Shown here one piece after another: positions 2,504-49,885 of a DNA stretch of 52,037 nucleotides. Source of the stretch: Caldifarciminota bacterium (lineage in GTDB: Bacteria; Hydrothermota; UBA3073). The stretch is from assembly GCA_023129165.1 (NCBI GenBank), contig JAGMCL010000109.1, forward strand, positions 1-52,037, given 5' to 3'. Both the position numbers and the translations under genes were made by a program. The notes below the pieces were generated by a model that worked only from the letters and a program-made list of their open reading frames with translations, was not told the origin of the DNA and did no database searches. The first letter of the stretch is position 1, and each line of letters opens with the position of its first letter.

Positions 2504-2908
2504 ATGAAGCTTAAATCATTCAAGGAGCTTAAGGTTTGGCAGCTGTCTCATAAACTTTCAATAGAAGTTTCAGATCTTGTAAAAACCTTTCCCAAAGATG
2601 AGAAATACGATCTTGCTGATCAAATGCGGCGCTCGGCACGAAGCATTCCTTCGGCGATTGCGGAAGGTTTTGGTAGGTTTCACTTTAATGACAAGTTAAC
2701 ATTCTATGAAAGGGGAAATGCATCGTTATTAGAGCTAAAGAACCATTTTGATGAAGCCAAAGAGAATAAATATATAAGTGATAAAGAATACAGGTATTAT
2801 CAAAAAAGAATGAATGAAATAGGGTTTCTTTTAGTTCGAATGATGAGTAAGATAAGAAAACATAGGGATGAGTATGAAGTTCAGAAAAAAGCCTATTCTC
2901 GTAAATAA
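2504..2908 (+). CDS. Four-helix bundle protein (23S rRNA-IVP/S23 family), copy 1
   Basis: FKELKVWQLSHKLSIEV...FPKDEKYDLADQMRRSARSIPSAIAEGFGR. Confidence 0.9.
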   Translation: MKLKSFKELKVWQLSHKLSIEVSDLVKTFPKDEKYDLADQMRRSARSIPSAIAEGFGRFHFNDKLTFYERGNASLLELKNHFDEAKENKYISDKEYRYYQKRMNEIGFLLVRMMSKIRKHRDEYEVQKKAYSRK

Positions 2909-3135
2909 CAATTCCAGCGAACGAAGTGAGCTAACTTCCAGTCGCAGGCTAACTTCCAGTCGCAGGCTAACTTCCAATGCGAAGCATTAACTTCCATTCC
3001 GAAGGAATAATTTCCAGCACGCAGTGCTCTTTTCCAGCGAACGAAGTGAGATAACTTCCAGCATCGGAGATGGTATCTTCCAGCACCAACGGTGCTAACT
3101 TCCATTCACGAAGTGAATAACTACACGAAGTGAAT
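2907..3135. repeat. Array of about 11 mini-hairpin units: conserved TAACTTCCA linker plus sequence-variable short palindrome with GNA-type triloop
   Basis: Units such as ATGC-GAA-GCAT, TTCC-GAA-GGAA, AGCAC-GCA-GTGCT, CATC-GGA-GATG, GCACC-AAC-GGTGC, TTCAC-GAA-GTGAA. Confidence 0.9.
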
Positions 3136-3214
3136 AATGTCTATCCACAATCCGAAATGTTTCTATAAAATGGTCGCTGTCCCTGTTTTTCCTATTTTTA
3201 TAAAAGAGTCATAA

Positions 3215-4411: not shown

Positions 4412-4786
4412 ATGTATTATACTTATGTTTTGTTGAGCAAAGTAGATGGCCAATTTTATACTGGTTGTACGGATAATTTGAAAAGGAGATTTGAAGAGCA
4501 TAATAGAGGTCGTGTACAATCAACAAAACGAAGAAAACCATTGGATTTAATTTATTATGAAGCTTGCCCTGTTAGATACGGATCCCTTTCGCTATGTGCT
4601 CAAGAATTAGTTATGGAATATCGCTGTGAACAGCTCCGTTAGTACATGTAACTTTTTAATCTAACAGGGCTTGCCTTTCTAATGAAGATGCTTATCGCCG
4701 TGAGAGATATTTGAAGACGGGTAAAGGCAAACGTTATATACGAAATAGACTTAAGGTCGCTCTATCAAAAATATGAGTTGGAACGG
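4412..4786 (+). pseudogene. GIY-YIG endonuclease (UPF0213-like) interrupted by a palindromic insertion at about 4562-4675
   Basis: MYYTYVLLSKVDGQFYTGCTDNLKRRFEEHNRG...DLIYYEAC then, after 107 bp, ACLSNEDAYRRERYLKTGKGKRYIRNRLKVALSKI*. Confidence 0.85.
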
Positions 4787-31139: not shown

Positions 31140-32504
31140 TTGTGTGAATCTAAAATGATGCTTATTATTAGTGATATATTTGTTGTCACTATAGCATTTT
31201 TCCTTACAGTCCTTTTGCGGTTTGGGGGTGTCGTTGATGTTGTCAAGCACCAGTGGTCTACGCTCATCTTCCTATATATTATTACCCTTGGCCTTTTCTA
31301 TTTCCTTGACTTTTACAACCGCAAAATGTACGCGAGGAGATTGCAGCTCTCCTTTGGGCTGATTCGTGCTTGGATCGCAATTGTTTTCATTTACCTAATA
31401 GTTGGTTTTTTGACCCGATTCAGCTTTCTAATTGACAGTCGTATATTTATTGTGGTTTATGGATTGTTCTTTCTTCTTCTACTTCTTGGTTTCCGTATCT
31501 TTCTGGTTCCTAAATGGTTTGATATTTATTATTCCAAATCCGACAGGAAAATTCCCTGTATATATTTGGGTCCCAAAGAAAGGTTTAAAAGAGTTAAGGA
31601 TTTTCTTCAGAATAATCCATTTCTTGGCATTGGCCCTGTGCTTGTAGGCAATGATTACGGTGATTTAAGGGATGATTACAGTGATATAAGGGATGATTAC
31701 AGTGATAAGGAGGTATTTTTATGGAGTGATGCAAGTGACTTTGAGATGTTGTACAAACAGATAAAGTCATTTGTGAGGATGGGACGGAATCTACAGGTTG
31801 CATCAAAACTCTTTGACGAATTGAACCTGAACTGCGATTGGTATCGCATTGATTCTGTGCCAGTTTATACATTTCGGCAGAAGAACTGGAGTTCACTCCG
31901 TCCATTTTTCAAAAGAGTCATCGACATAGTTGGCTCGTTCCTTGCACTTGTTATCTTATGTCCGGTATATGGTGTGTTTGCACTTGCAGTAAAATTAGAT
32001 TCCCCAGGTTCCGTTTTCTTCAAACAACGCAGATGTGGATTAAAAGGCAAAGAATTTACCTTTTTTAAGTTTCGGTCGATGTTTCAACAACAGACTGAAG
32101 ATAAGGAACGTGTAGAAGAATTCAAAAACTATATAAATAATAGGGAAGATAAGGGGAAAATTGTCGATTCAGAAAACATCACAAGGGTTGGCAGAATCTT
32201 GAGGAAGACTACTATGGATGAATTACCACAGTTCTGGAATGTTTTAAAGGGAGAGATGAGTCTGGTTGGACCACGACCGGGAATAGATTATGAGGTTAAA
32301 CACTATAAGAACTGGCACAGAGATAGACTTATGGTTAAGCCCGGAATGTCTGGGCTCTGGGCAGTTTACGGAAGAGGAAACACGCCATTTGACACCTCAG
32401 TATTTCTCGATATCATGTATATCACAAATCGCTCTACTTCTATGGATATAAAGCTCATTTTTCAGATTATTCCTGTGGTGGTGTTTGGGAGAGGAGCGTA
32501 CTAA
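31140..32504 (+). CDS. Undecaprenyl-phosphate sugar-1-phosphate transferase
   Basis: KRVIDIVGSFLALVIL...SPGSVFFKQRRCGLKGKEFTFFKFRSM...DELPQFWNVLKGEMSLVGPRP. Confidence 0.95.
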   Translation: MCESKMMLIISDIFVVTIAFFLTVLLRFGGVVDVVKHQWSTLIFLYIITLGLFYFLDFYNRKMYARRLQLSFGLIRAWIAIVFIYLIVGFLTRFSFLIDSRIFIVVYGLFFLLLLLGFRIFLVPKWFDIYYSKSDRKIPCIYLGPKERFKRVKDFLQNNPFLGIGPVLVGNDYGDLRDDYSDIRDDYSDKEVFLWSDASDFEMLYKQIKSFVRMGRNLQVASKLFDELNLNCDWYRIDSVPVYTFRQKNWSSLRPFFKRVIDIVGSFLALVILCPVYGVFALAVKLDSPGSVFFKQRRCGLKGKEFTFFKFRSMFQQQTEDKERVEEFKNYINNREDKGKIVDSENITRVGRILRKTTMDELPQFWNVLKGEMSLVGPRPGIDYEVKHYKNWHRDRLMVKPGMSGLWAVYGRGNTPFDTSVFLDIMYITNRSTSMDIKLIFQIIPVVVFGRGAY

Positions 32505-37854: not shown

Positions 37855-38226
37855 TTGAAGGAAAAAGTAAAAGATAAAAGTTTTGGTTTTATGTCGTTGC
37901 CGTTTGGTCTAATTTCCGTGATCTATATTGCCCTAATTTTCATTCTTTCGGGTATTTCGGGGGAAATTGAATTGATAAAGAGGTTTAATCCGCTTAGTCT
38001 GCTGCATATCCCCTTATATGGTTTATTAACGTTTTTTCTTATATGCACCTTCTGGCAAAAGGGCAAAAAGTTATTAATTCTTGCAATTTTTATTGCTCTT
38101 TTGGTAGCGATTTTTGACGAACTGAATCAGATTCATATACCAGGAAGAATGGCATCAGGATGGGATGTGGTGATGGATGCGGTGGGGATAGGGATGGTGA
38201 TGTTATGCGTAAGGCGTAGAGCGTAA
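37855..38226 (+). CDS. VanZ-like membrane protein, copy 1; last codons run into the heptamer array
   Basis: DELNQIHIPGRMASGWDVVMDAVGIG. Confidence 0.85.
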   Translation: MKEKVKDKSFGFMSLPFGLISVIYIALIFILSGISGEIELIKRFNPLSLLHIPLYGLLTFFLICTFWQKGKKLLILAIFIALLVAIFDELNQIHIPGRMASGWDVVMDAVGIGMVMLCVRRRA

Positions 38227-38367
38227 GGCGTAGAGCGTAATGCGTAAGGCGTAAAGCGAGGAACATGGGGAGTAGGGCGTAAGGCGTAGAGTGTAGGGAG
38301 TAAGGCGTAGAGTGTAGGGCGTAAGGAGTAGGGAGTAGGGAGTAAGGCGTAGGGCGTAAAGCGAGGA
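38207..38367. repeat. Heptamer array A, 23 x 7 nt in register (GCGTARR, GAGTARG, GTGTAGG variants)
   Basis: gcgtaag gcgtaga gcgtaag gcgtaga gcgtaat gcgtaag gcgtaaa gcgagga acatggg gagtagg gcgtaag ... gcgtaaa gcgagga, directly before ggattATG of the four-helix gene. Confidence 0.95.
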
Positions 38368-38372
38368 GGATT

Positions 38373-38756
38373 ATGAGGGGCGATTTAAAAGGATATAAAG
38401 ATTTGGATGTTTATCAATTGTCTTACAAAATGGCTATTGAGATATTTGAAGAAACAAAGAATTTTCCTAAAGAAGAAAAGTTTTCGTTGACTGACCAGAT
38501 TCGCCGTTCCTCAAGGTCAATAGCGAGTAACATTGCTGAATCATGGGGTAAACGAATGTATCGTAACCATTTTGTAAACAAGCTCAGCGATAGTTATGCA
38601 GAGGCCAATGAGACCCAGACCTGGCTCGACTTTAGCCTTTCGCATAGCTATATGAATAAAGAAAGGTATGACTATTTCACTGATAATTATGACCATATAA
38701 GTCGAATGTTGTTTAATATGATGAAAAATCCTGAAAAATTTCTTTTAAAGTTATGA
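38373..38756 (+). CDS. Four-helix bundle protein (S23/IVP family), copy 2
   Basis: YKDLDVYQLSYKMAIEIF...FSLTDQIRRSSRSIASNIAESWGKR. Confidence 0.92.
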   Translation: MRGDLKGYKDLDVYQLSYKMAIEIFEETKNFPKEEKFSLTDQIRRSSRSIASNIAESWGKRMYRNHFVNKLSDSYAEANETQTWLDFSLSHSYMNKERYDYFTDNYDHISRMLFNMMKNPEKFLLKL

Positions 38757-38802
38757 TCTTTTATGCGATATACCATACTTTTCACATTTCTCTATTGTAG
38801 TT

Positions 38803-38867
38803 GCTCTTTACGCATTACTCTATACTCCTTACGCAAGATTAAATGTGCATACTGCTTACTGCATACT
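38803..38867. repeat. Heptamer array A' in inverted orientation, plus three GCATACT/GCTTACT heptamers
   Basis: gctcttt acgcatt actctat actcctt acgcaag = reverse complement of GCGTAAG/GAGTATA/GAGTAAT/GCGTAAA; then gcatact gcttact gcatact. Confidence 0.9.
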
Positions 38868-38948
38868 TAATCTGTGGGGGAAAAATCAGGTCATCTGTGG
38901 GGGAAAATTTTCGTGGATAGTTTTTCCTTGTTATTTTATCAAAGGTGT

Positions 38949-40726: not shown

Positions 40727-41053
40727 ATGGATTTAAAAACATTAATTTCACAAAATGAGTCAGAAATTTTGGAGTTTAAAAAAAGGTTCGATTTTGAGAA
40801 GTATCAAGGCTTCAGGGTTGTTTTTATGAAAGATATTTATTCAGAAGAATACTTGAGAGATTTAAGTTTGAATGAGAGACAAATTAGAGCGGTGATGTAT
40901 CTTAAAGAAAAGGGAAAGATAACAAATAAAGATTATCAAGTTTTAAACAAAATCTCAAGAGAAACCTCTAAGATAGAATTAAACACACTTGTAGACAAAA
41001 AGATAATAGTAAAAATCGGGAAAGGAAGAGGTGTCCACTATCATTTGGGATAA
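40727..41053 (+). pseudogene. AlbA_2/Schlafen-type (RecG-like helicase) protein with the central region deleted in frame
   Basis: MDLKTLISQNESEILEFKKRF (N-terminal signature) joined to RDLSLNERQIRAVMYLKEKGKITNKDYQ...KGRGVHYHLG (C-terminal wHTH). Confidence 0.6.
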
Positions 41054-41095
41054 ATGGGTAATAAATGGGTAATAAATGGGTAATAAAGGAACACC

Positions 41096-48310: not shown

Positions 48311-48436
48311 GATAGACTACAGACAGCAGACCACAGACCGCAGACTACAGACCGCAGACTACAGACCGCAGACTGCAGACTACAGACCACAAACCACAGA
48401 CTACAGACCGCAGACTACAGACCACAGACTAAGGAC
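48311..48436. repeat. Heptamer array B, about 18 x 7 nt (TACAGAC, CGCAGAC, CACAGAC)
   Basis: gatagac tacagac agcagac cacagac cgcagac tacagac cgcagac tacagac cgcagac tgcagac tacagac cacaaac cacagac ... Confidence 0.95.
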
Positions 48437-48470
48437 TAAAAAATTAATTAATAAAGGAAGGAGGAGGATT

Positions 48471-48833
48471 ATGGGAAGGGATTATAGGAAGATTAAGGCA
48501 TGGAAATTAGCAGATGAACTGGCAGTCTTAATATATAAGTCAACAGGTGATTTTCCAAAGTCTGAAATCTATGGACTTACTTCTCAAATAAGGAGAGCAG
48601 CGGTATCTGTAGCTGCAAATATAGTAGAAGGAGCATCACGCAAAACAAAACTTGATTATTCCCATTTTTTATATATTTCAAGAGGTTCATTGGCTGAGGT
48701 TGGATATTATATACATCTTTCGAGAAGATTGGACTTCATTGATGACAATAAGTGTACTAAATTGGGTAGGTTGCAACAAGAAACTGCTGCTACACTTTAT
48801 GGATTGATAAAGTCTGTAGAAAGTGAAACTTGA
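48471..48833 (+). CDS. Four-helix bundle protein (S23/IVP family), copy 3
   Basis: MGRDYRKIKAWKLADELAVLIYKSTGDFPKSEIYGLTSQIRRAAVSVAANIVEGASR; GAGGAGGATTATG start context as in copy 2. Confidence 0.92.
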   Translation: MGRDYRKIKAWKLADELAVLIYKSTGDFPKSEIYGLTSQIRRAAVSVAANIVEGASRKTKLDYSHFLYISRGSLAEVGYYIHLSRRLDFIDDNKCTKLGRLQQETAATLYGLIKSVESET

Positions 48834-48852
48834 AAAAAAACCTTATATTTTT

Positions 48853-48887
48853 AGTCTATGGTCTGTGGTCTGTAGTCTGTTGTCTAA
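48853..48887. repeat. Heptamer array B', inverted orientation
   Basis: agtctat ggtctgt ggtctgt agtctgt tgtctaa = reverse complement of CAGACT/CAGACC units. Confidence 0.92.
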
Positions 48888-48906
48888 GCTTATCAACGGG
48901 GGTATT

Positions 48907-49375: not shown

Positions 49376-49438
49376 GTTAGTAAACAGTATGCACTATGCA
49401 GTAAGCAGCAGGTTGCTAAATATAATGCACTAAGGAGT
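49376..49438. repeat. Heptamer array C (degenerate)
   Basis: gttagta aacagta tgcacta tgcagta agcagca ... atgcact aaggagt. Confidence 0.7.
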
Positions 49439-49443
49439 GAAAA

Positions 49444-49818
49444 GTGGGATATAAAGGATATAGAGACTTAAAGGTATTTAAATTATCATATAAATTAGCT
49501 ATGGAGGTATTTGTAATAACAAAATTATTTCCCAAGGAAGAGAAATATTCGTTAACCGATCAAATAAGAAGGTCGTCTCGAGGTGTGCCTGCCAATATAG
49601 CAGAAGGATGGAAAAAAAGAAGATATCCAAAAATGTTCATCAGTAAGACAATCGACGCCGCTGGTGAAGCAGGTGAAACAGAAGTATGGCTTGATTTTTC
49701 GTTGGATTGCGGCTATATTAATCAAGAAAAATATGATTATTTTATCGAAGGATATGATGAGGTAAACCGGATGCTTTATGGAATGATAGGGAAGCCAGAG
49801 AGTTTCTGTGGAAGTTAG
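49444..49818 (+). CDS. Four-helix bundle protein (S23/IVP family), copy 4
   Basis: YRDLKVFKLSYKLAMEVFVITKLFPKEEKYSLTDQIRRSSRGVPANIAEGWKKR; GTG start. Confidence 0.92.
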   Translation: MGYKGYRDLKVFKLSYKLAMEVFVITKLFPKEEKYSLTDQIRRSSRGVPANIAEGWKKRRYPKMFISKTIDAAGEAGETEVWLDFSLDCGYINQEKYDYFIEGYDEVNRMLYGMIGKPESFCGS

Positions 49819-49853
49819 TGCTTAGTACATACGGCTTACTGCTTAGTTAATAT
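49819..49853. repeat. Heptamer array C', inverted orientation, starting right at the stop codon
   Basis: tgcttag tacatac ggcttac tgcttag ttaatat. Confidence 0.75.
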
Positions 49854-49885
49854 CTGAAGTCTATTATCTAATCCGGGGGGGAAAT

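Follow-up and report, generated by a model that had tools for sequence, protein, structure and literature searches.

An array of variable mini-hairpins beside a four-helix-bundle gene is the probable terminal repeat of a small one-gene element

Results

The mini-hairpin array and the gene that it adjoins

The window, by which we mean the whole stretch of 52,037 nucleotides analysed here, is contig 12 of a 3.03-Mb genome in 153 contigs. It contains a gene for a four-helix-bundle protein (4HB, 'S23/23S-IVP') and, downstream of it, an array of short units, each made of a linker and a mini-hairpin, mostly of the form C-GNA-G. The stop codon of the 4HB reading frame occupies positions 2906-2908 and the array starts at the very next base, 2909.

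2504..2908, + strand: PF05635 4HB gene, 134 aa, bounded by the array
2909..3136, + strand: array of 11 linker and mini-hairpin units, putative 3' terminal array
2912..2931, + strand: unit 1, TTCCA + GCGAAC-GAA-GTGAGC, tandem G-A in the stem
2932..2967, + strand: units 2 and 3, TAACTTCCA + GTC-GCA-GGC, identical copies
2968..2987, + strand: unit 4, TAACTTCCA + ATGC-GAA-GCAT
2988..3007, + strand: unit 5, TAACTTCCA + TTCC-GAA-GGAA
3008..3028, + strand: unit 6, TAATTTCCA + GCAC-GCA-GTGC
3030..3050, + strand: unit 7, TTTTCCA + GCGAAC-GAA-GTGAG, tandem G-A
3052..3073, + strand: unit 8, TAACTTCCA + (G)CATC-GGA-GATG(G)
3074..3095, + strand: unit 9, TATCTTCCA + GCACC-AAC-GGTGC, loop not GNA
3096..3117, + strand: unit 10, TAACTTCCA + TTCAC-GAA-GTGAA
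3118..3136, + strand: unit 11, TAACTA + CAC-GAA-GTG, degenerate and terminal

Profile searches assign the protein to PF05635 (23S_rRNA_IVP; E 2.9e-30, 105.1 bits against a cut-off of 33.8) and TIGR02436 (E 7e-27, 93.8 bits against a cut-off of 24), with a weak match to Pfam bAvd (1e-5). It is basic, with a pI of 9.7; the proteins of the hairpin branch described below range from 9.1 to 10.6. The AF2 model, built from 14 sequences, is a four-helix bundle with a pLDDT of 92. A Foldseek search with this model returned 2gsc as the best PDB entry (E 2e-6), 2rld as the next (E 5e-5), and then the Avd structures 4dwl and 8ub7. As modelled, the protein shares the fold of the S23 structures, and its resemblance to Avd is weaker by E-value.

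The array is genuine and lies beyond chance. Linkers matching TAACTTCCA with at most one mismatch lie at 2932, 2950, 2968, 2988, 3008, 3052, 3074 and 3096, and degenerate linkers at about 2912, 3032 and 3118. Eight triloop hairpins with stems of at least four pairs are present, against a mean of 1.6 and a maximum of 6 in 1000 dinucleotide shuffles; six of the eight loops are GNA, against 0.13 and at most 2 in the shuffles. A preliminary description had quoted six hairpins, all of which are found in the window, and had called their loops GNA triloops. This holds for six of the eight triloops, while the loop of GCACC-AAC-GGTGC is of another kind.

The arms of the hairpins are matched unit by unit. 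Among the nine distinct units, 23 of the 27 arm positions outside the closing pair are Watson-Crick pairs, against 7.6 expected, and when right arms were re-dealt in all 362,880 ways only 12 dealings were as good. Sheared G-A pairs, which two units (GCGAAC-GAA-GTGAG) need, were not counted as pairs in the scoring. Each arm thus fits its own partner much better than one dealt to it at random, and the stems vary by unit yet stay self-complementary, which bears out the phrase 'constant handle, interchangeable stem' of the preliminary description. TTCCA is followed by such a stem in 8 of 10 cases in the array and in 18 of 165 cases elsewhere in the window. The tandem repeat finder reports periods of 18-22, and the identity of units 2 and 3 indicates some tandem duplication.

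Folded as a whole, the 228-nt array departs only moderately from expectation (DNA z -2.9 and -2.6; RNA z -2.3 and -1.1), and the folding energies separate neither DNA from RNA nor the plus strand from the minus strand. No Rfam match was found between 1501 and 4500. The array lies on one side of the gene only, no upstream array being visible 5' of the reading frame. In the genome to which the window belongs TAACTTCCA is not enriched (43 matches against 62 for a control pattern) and a single array is evident.

Several other features were observed in the window. A ParE/RelE-type toxin gene and a small upstream partner (1938-2409) immediately precede the 4HB gene; a similar-looking pair lies inside a hairpin array in another genome (G102, locus L468). 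Upstream of the toxin-antitoxin-like pair, TGCCCTG/GCCCCGTTG repeats and others of TTACAT...TGTAA type form a dense patchwork at 1441-1870. At 4412-4760 a GIY-YIG gene is interrupted by an insert (4566-4670) with ends GCCCTGTTAGAT...ATCTAACAGGGC, and at L022/L023 and L463 GIY-YIG genes with CCCTGTGTAATA or CCCCGTTAGAT-like ends split 4HB genes. Short tandem repeats occur at 31651-31707 (21-nt ATGATTACAGTGATATAAGGG) and 41050-41087 (11-nt ATAAATGGGTA).

Mini-hairpin arrays at related genes

We scanned 147 genomes of the phylum with a tight pattern (CTTCCA, CGAAG, AACTTCC). It matches three genomes only; the reversed control gives one match. The closest homologues of the window protein (61-68% identical; G036, G092, G099) have TTCCA arrays, and the next homologues (40-47% identical) have the same kind of array with other linkers. 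Arrays of TTACAG + hairpin + CGTT occur in G020, G031 and G109, the last with units such as GCGC-GCA-GCGC, GCAC-GAA-GTGC, GCCC-GTA-GGGC and GCTCC-GCA-GGAGC; GTGTCTTCAG arrays occur in G102, G098, G114, G100 and G110. The preliminary description had pointed to related genomes as the place to look for such arrays, and the arrangement of gene and hairpin array indeed recurs at 12 related 4HB loci in 12 genomes.

The arrays adjoin relatives of the window gene in several families of the phylum, usually on both sides and inverted. At the related loci 57 downstream linkers lie on the plus strand and 3 on the minus strand, while upstream 4 lie on the plus strand and 36 on the minus strand. With 57 of 60 downstream linkers on the plus strand and 36 of 40 upstream ones on the minus strand, the two arrays of a locus are oriented towards each other in the manner of terminal inverted repeats. 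The exception is locus L396 in G109, where both arrays run in the same direction.

Near the 12 genes 46 of 117 linkers are followed by an anchored stem of at least four pairs, against 9.4 (sd 3.0) in shuffled sequence; the controls are 11 of 74 for the same linkers farther away and the 18 of 165 for TTCCA elsewhere in the window. When every CGNAG core near the related genes was taken, without selection for a stem, a fraction of 0.471 of the four outer positions was paired, against 0.253 (sd 0.020) after re-dealing and 0.27 for cores elsewhere. Covariation of stems across related arrays, which the preliminary description had proposed to measure, is observed. That description had named stems without covariation, or plain duplication with random drift, as outcomes that would speak against it, and neither is seen, because the arms co-vary both within the array and across related arrays.

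Arrays are also found apart from genes. Gene-less arrays occur in G036, G021, G113 and G109, and in the first two they are intergenic, without a 4HB gene. Near-identical copies of units, as seen in the window, are also found in arrays of G099 and G102. Palindromes, for example TCCTGAGCGAAGTCGAAGGA and GGAGCGAAGCGACGTG, occur within some array units (L273-L275 and L270 in G036; L421, L423); we take these palindromes to resemble the dispersed repeats of many genomes, with which they may share an origin. A search of genome and viral contigs for the three-linker pattern hit, for the most part, simple AACTTCC heptamers and repeats in coding sequence, and gave no convincing hairpin arrays. In viral contigs the matches to the TTCCA+CGAAG hairpin pattern lie in coding sequence, and no close homologue of the window protein was found.

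Linker classes on the protein tree

We placed the linkers on a tree of 60 4HB proteins (118 columns). Each linker class falls on a single branch (TTCCA, 100/98; TACAG, 94/39; GTGTCTTCAG, 100/99), and all hairpin loci lie within one branch of 15 rows (95/93), two members of which, L407 and L410, have no clear hairpin array. The linker labels require 4 changes on the tree, against 12.8 when shuffled. The inner forks are weak because the alignment has only 118 columns. Among the sequences compared, the linker is concordant with the branch of the 4HB protein.

Heptamer arrays around other 4HB genes

Three further 4HB genes of the window are accompanied by arrays of another kind.

38207..38364, + strand: array of ~7-nt units (GCGTAAG/GCGTAGG) upstream of the second 4HB gene, inverted partner at ~38820-38835, z 8.8
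38373..38756, + strand: second 4HB gene
48311..48435, + strand: array of ~7-nt units (CAGACTACAGACCG...) upstream of the third 4HB gene, inverted partner at ~48850-48885, z 13.7
48471..48833, + strand: third 4HB gene, flanks CAGACTACAGACCG... and ...GGTCTGTGGTCTGTAGTCTG
49378..49440, + strand: array upstream of the fourth 4HB gene, z 5.7
49444..49818, + strand: fourth 4HB gene, between a polysaccharide-export gene and a wzz-like gene

Similar settings, in which 4HB genes lie within inverted, degenerate ~7-nt arrays with a gene-specific unit, were observed in the window (38207-38870, 48311-48890, 49378-49860) and in several phyla (L009-L021, L360-L389, L424-L457). Among 41 4HB genes from seven genomes, 32 have upstream and downstream flanks that are inverted complements of each other to a degree that none of 60 shuffles reached. 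Outside the phylum, significant inverted flanks occur at 26 of 29 4HB loci, a share that is biased upward because the genomes concerned were chosen for holding AACTTCC repeats. The array period is a multiple of 7 in 43 of 64 cases and 8 or 16 in 12 of 64. By eye, inverted arrays also flank four 4HB genes of cyanobacterial plasmids that lie in or beside cas, nrd and transport genes; among the plasmid loci (L424, L426), the neighbours of the 4HB gene are cas6 and cas4 in one case and cas10 and cmr3 in the other.

Gain and loss at the wza-wzz junction

Within one family we compared the site at which an SLBB/wza-like gene adjoins wzz (loci L458-L469). The two genes are separated by 2 bp in G096, 1 bp in G098 and 116 bp in G021, without a 4HB gene, and by only a short decayed repeat in G113. 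The junction holds TTCCA-type units in G099 and G117, GTGTCTTCAG-type (TCTTCA) units in G110, G114 and G102, and other 4HB genes in G112, G109 and G103. The same operon junction can thus stand empty or hold one of several 4HB units, which come with array types of their own. The region 49378-49860 of the window, with the fourth 4HB gene, is a further occupied junction of this kind in a polysaccharide-export operon. In G001, a genome of the same genus as the window, the best homologue of the window protein is only 37% identical, while other families hold homologues of 61-68% identity, which indicates a patchy spread. We read the empty or differently filled junction and the patchy spread as mobility, and the 4HB units would accordingly be mobile. 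Presence and absence at the junction is evidence of gain or loss rather than of a mechanism, and part of the pattern may be vertical inheritance with decay. Neither a target-site duplication nor a joining enzyme was identified for the 4HB element.

Discussion

Interpretation of the array

The comparison of sequences shows the association of the arrays with 4HB genes, their inverted orientation, the concordance of linker and protein branch, the co-variation of the arms, the empty and filled states of one junction, and the occurrence of gene-less arrays. The association with 4HB genes, the inverted arrays of relatives and the filling of the wza-wzz junction make the 3' end array of a 4HB element the most likely identity of the window feature. 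We consider it probable, with some reserve, that the window array forms the downstream end, as a terminal repeat, of a small one-gene 4HB element bounded by short-unit arrays. This main point, together with a handle that tracks the protein phylogeny, is absent from the preliminary description.

At most 4HB genes the units are words of ~7 nt, and the upstream and downstream arrays are inverted complements. In the branch of the window gene the unit is a short linker with a variable mini-hairpin, usually closed as C-GNA-G, in arrays that are again inverted. According to the mechanism we propose, the basic, Avd-like 4HB protein would recognise the linker and hairpin as single-stranded DNA or RNA, and another enzyme would supply the joining chemistry in trans. 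Stems may drift freely provided that pairing persists, since shape and linker would be what is read. That the element's own protein binds the array would be the simplest reason for a linker that tracks the protein tree beside a stem of free sequence, and the hairpins are probably recognised, as single-stranded DNA or RNA, by this protein. As a rule, DNA mini-hairpins of exceptional stability have GNA or GNNA loops with any N and G-C closing pairs (PMC4686876). Six of the eight triloops of the array and 27 of 46 loops across the relatives fit this rule, which favours recognition as single-stranded DNA, RNA being possible.

The best-surviving alternative, which we hold to be unlikely, is a role at the RNA level. 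The transcribed units would then be hairpins that process, stabilise or regulate mRNA, and base pairing between the inverted arrays would enclose the gene, on the model of an rRNA intervening sequence, with the 4HB protein binding this RNA. 4HB genes do lie within operons (wza-wzz, and cas operons in cyanobacteria), inverted flanks would pair as a stem like that of the Coxiella intervening sequence, which is cut by RNase III (PMC4990558), and Avd, a relative by fold, acts in an RNA complex (8ub7). However, the hairpins do not look optimised for RNA, as seen from the RNA z values of the whole array; the loops are GNA/GNNA with any N, following the DNA rule, and not GNRA; two of the plasmid 4HB genes are oriented opposite to their neighbours; and the Rfam search returned no match.

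A REP/RAYT-type system, in which the linker is the tag, the mini-hairpin is the palindrome, an IS200/IS605-like Y1 (HUH) transposase encoded elsewhere moves the single-stranded units and the 4HB gene is a passenger, appears less likely still. REP elements are laid out in this way, as a tag beside a hairpin in intergenic arrays that are dispersed (PMC3733652), and each of the 19 genomes tested, all array-bearing or related, has a Y1 gene, above the cut-off in 18. Yet none of the 32 Y1 loci has an array; a single isolated C-GNA-G hairpin is the most that any of them contains, and their ends are other sequences, for example TAGCCCAC...GTGGG or GGGGTCAGGCT. G100 has an array and a 4HB gene while its Y1 match is below the cut-off, and the linker tracks the 4HB tree. 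Membership in REP/RAYT is rejected, as the linkers (TAACTTCCA, TACAG, GTGTCTTCAG) contain no GTAG or CGTC tag and the Y1 loci lack such arrays.

Neutral palindromes are a distinctly improbable source of the array. Template switching yields perfect palindromes without selection, so that tandem duplication could multiply units while intrastrand switching during replication keeps their arms complementary, with no function involved. The identical units 2 and 3 and the near-identical copies in G099 and G102 agree with this, but it leaves unexplained the tie to a single branch, the inverted facing of the arrays and the constant linker with changing stems. Selection at the single-stranded level, as put forward in the preliminary description, is upheld in so far as preservation at that level is likely; template switching that keeps palindromes perfect would look alike, and the strand may be DNA or RNA either way. 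A plain tandem repeat with random drift, to which the periods of 18-22 would correspond, is refuted by the re-dealing test, the arms matching their own partners only, and we give it almost no weight.

Under the 4HB-element interpretation, the inverted terminal arrays give the S23/IVP family a testable partner, its own repeats. The family is common and, to our knowledge, without assigned function outside rRNA introns. The arrays also offer one possible origin for the degenerate heptamer and mini-hairpin repeats scattered in bacterial genomes. The hairpin branch lends itself particularly well to experiment, as its linkers and hairpins could be exchanged for those of other branches, and in it the GNA mini-hairpins of DNA, whose great stability is known from chemistry, would have a natural role. 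More tentatively, the stand-alone S23/4HB genes of many phyla may form a large unrecognised class of mobile elements, whose ends would be short-unit arrays that the 4HB protein reads; within a single branch the units would be interchangeable mini-hairpins with a branch-specific handle, the protein and its code of shape and handle co-evolving without a recognised transposase.

Comparison with known systems

What is new, as far as the open-access literature shows, is the arrangement of a 4HB gene with terminal arrays of short units, which in this case are mini-hairpins; both the protein family and the chemistry of the hairpins are established. We found no report of 4HB/S23 genes with flanking arrays in the open-access literature.

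One close parallel is the 23S rRNA intervening sequence (IVS) with an S23/IVP reading frame, which shares PF05635, a reading frame between mutually complementary sequences, a patchy spread and suspected mobility (PMC4990558). Complementary ends are seen in relatives of the window gene, while none are visible 5' of the window copy. The 4HB unit differs in lying between protein genes, in ending in tandem short-unit or mini-hairpin arrays instead of one stem, and in the existence of gene-less arrays. A location inside 23S rRNA is rejected for the window gene, whose neighbours are protein genes in a region free of Rfam matches.

REP/BIME repeats and the REPtrons of RAYT (TnpA-REP) likewise combine a constant tag beside a hairpin, an intergenic position, a repeat-flanked gene and extra copies elsewhere. 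Cleavage of single-stranded units by TnpA-REP was assayed in vitro (PMC8266576). Unlike those repeats, the 4HB arrays have stems that vary from unit to unit within one array and no GTAG/CGTC tag; the array gene encodes a 4HB protein without an HUH domain, and the Y1 genes of the same genomes are without these repeats.

The accessory protein Avd of diversity-generating retroelements (DGR) resembles the window protein in fold (Foldseek probability 1.00, TM 0.72/0.89 to 4dwl) and through the weak bAvd match. A DGR-like mechanism that uses a resident reverse transcriptase is nevertheless not supported, as 15 of 16 array genomes, that of the window included, have no PF00078 reverse transcriptase.

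The heptameric repeats of cyanobacteria and Xanthomonas (GGGAATC, GGGGA(C/T)T) resemble the degenerate ~7-nt arrays around other 4HB genes, and XCC0516 (2gsc), a 4HB relative of solved structure, comes from Xanthomonas campestris, a species rich in such repeats (PMC4692102). That paper mentions no S23/four-helix genes and describes no mini-hairpins. The TAACTGA direct repeats of Beggiatoaceae are also intergenic 7-nt repeats found in cyanobacteria and Bacteroidetes; they were interpreted as regulatory, with no mention of a 4HB gene (PMC4679880).
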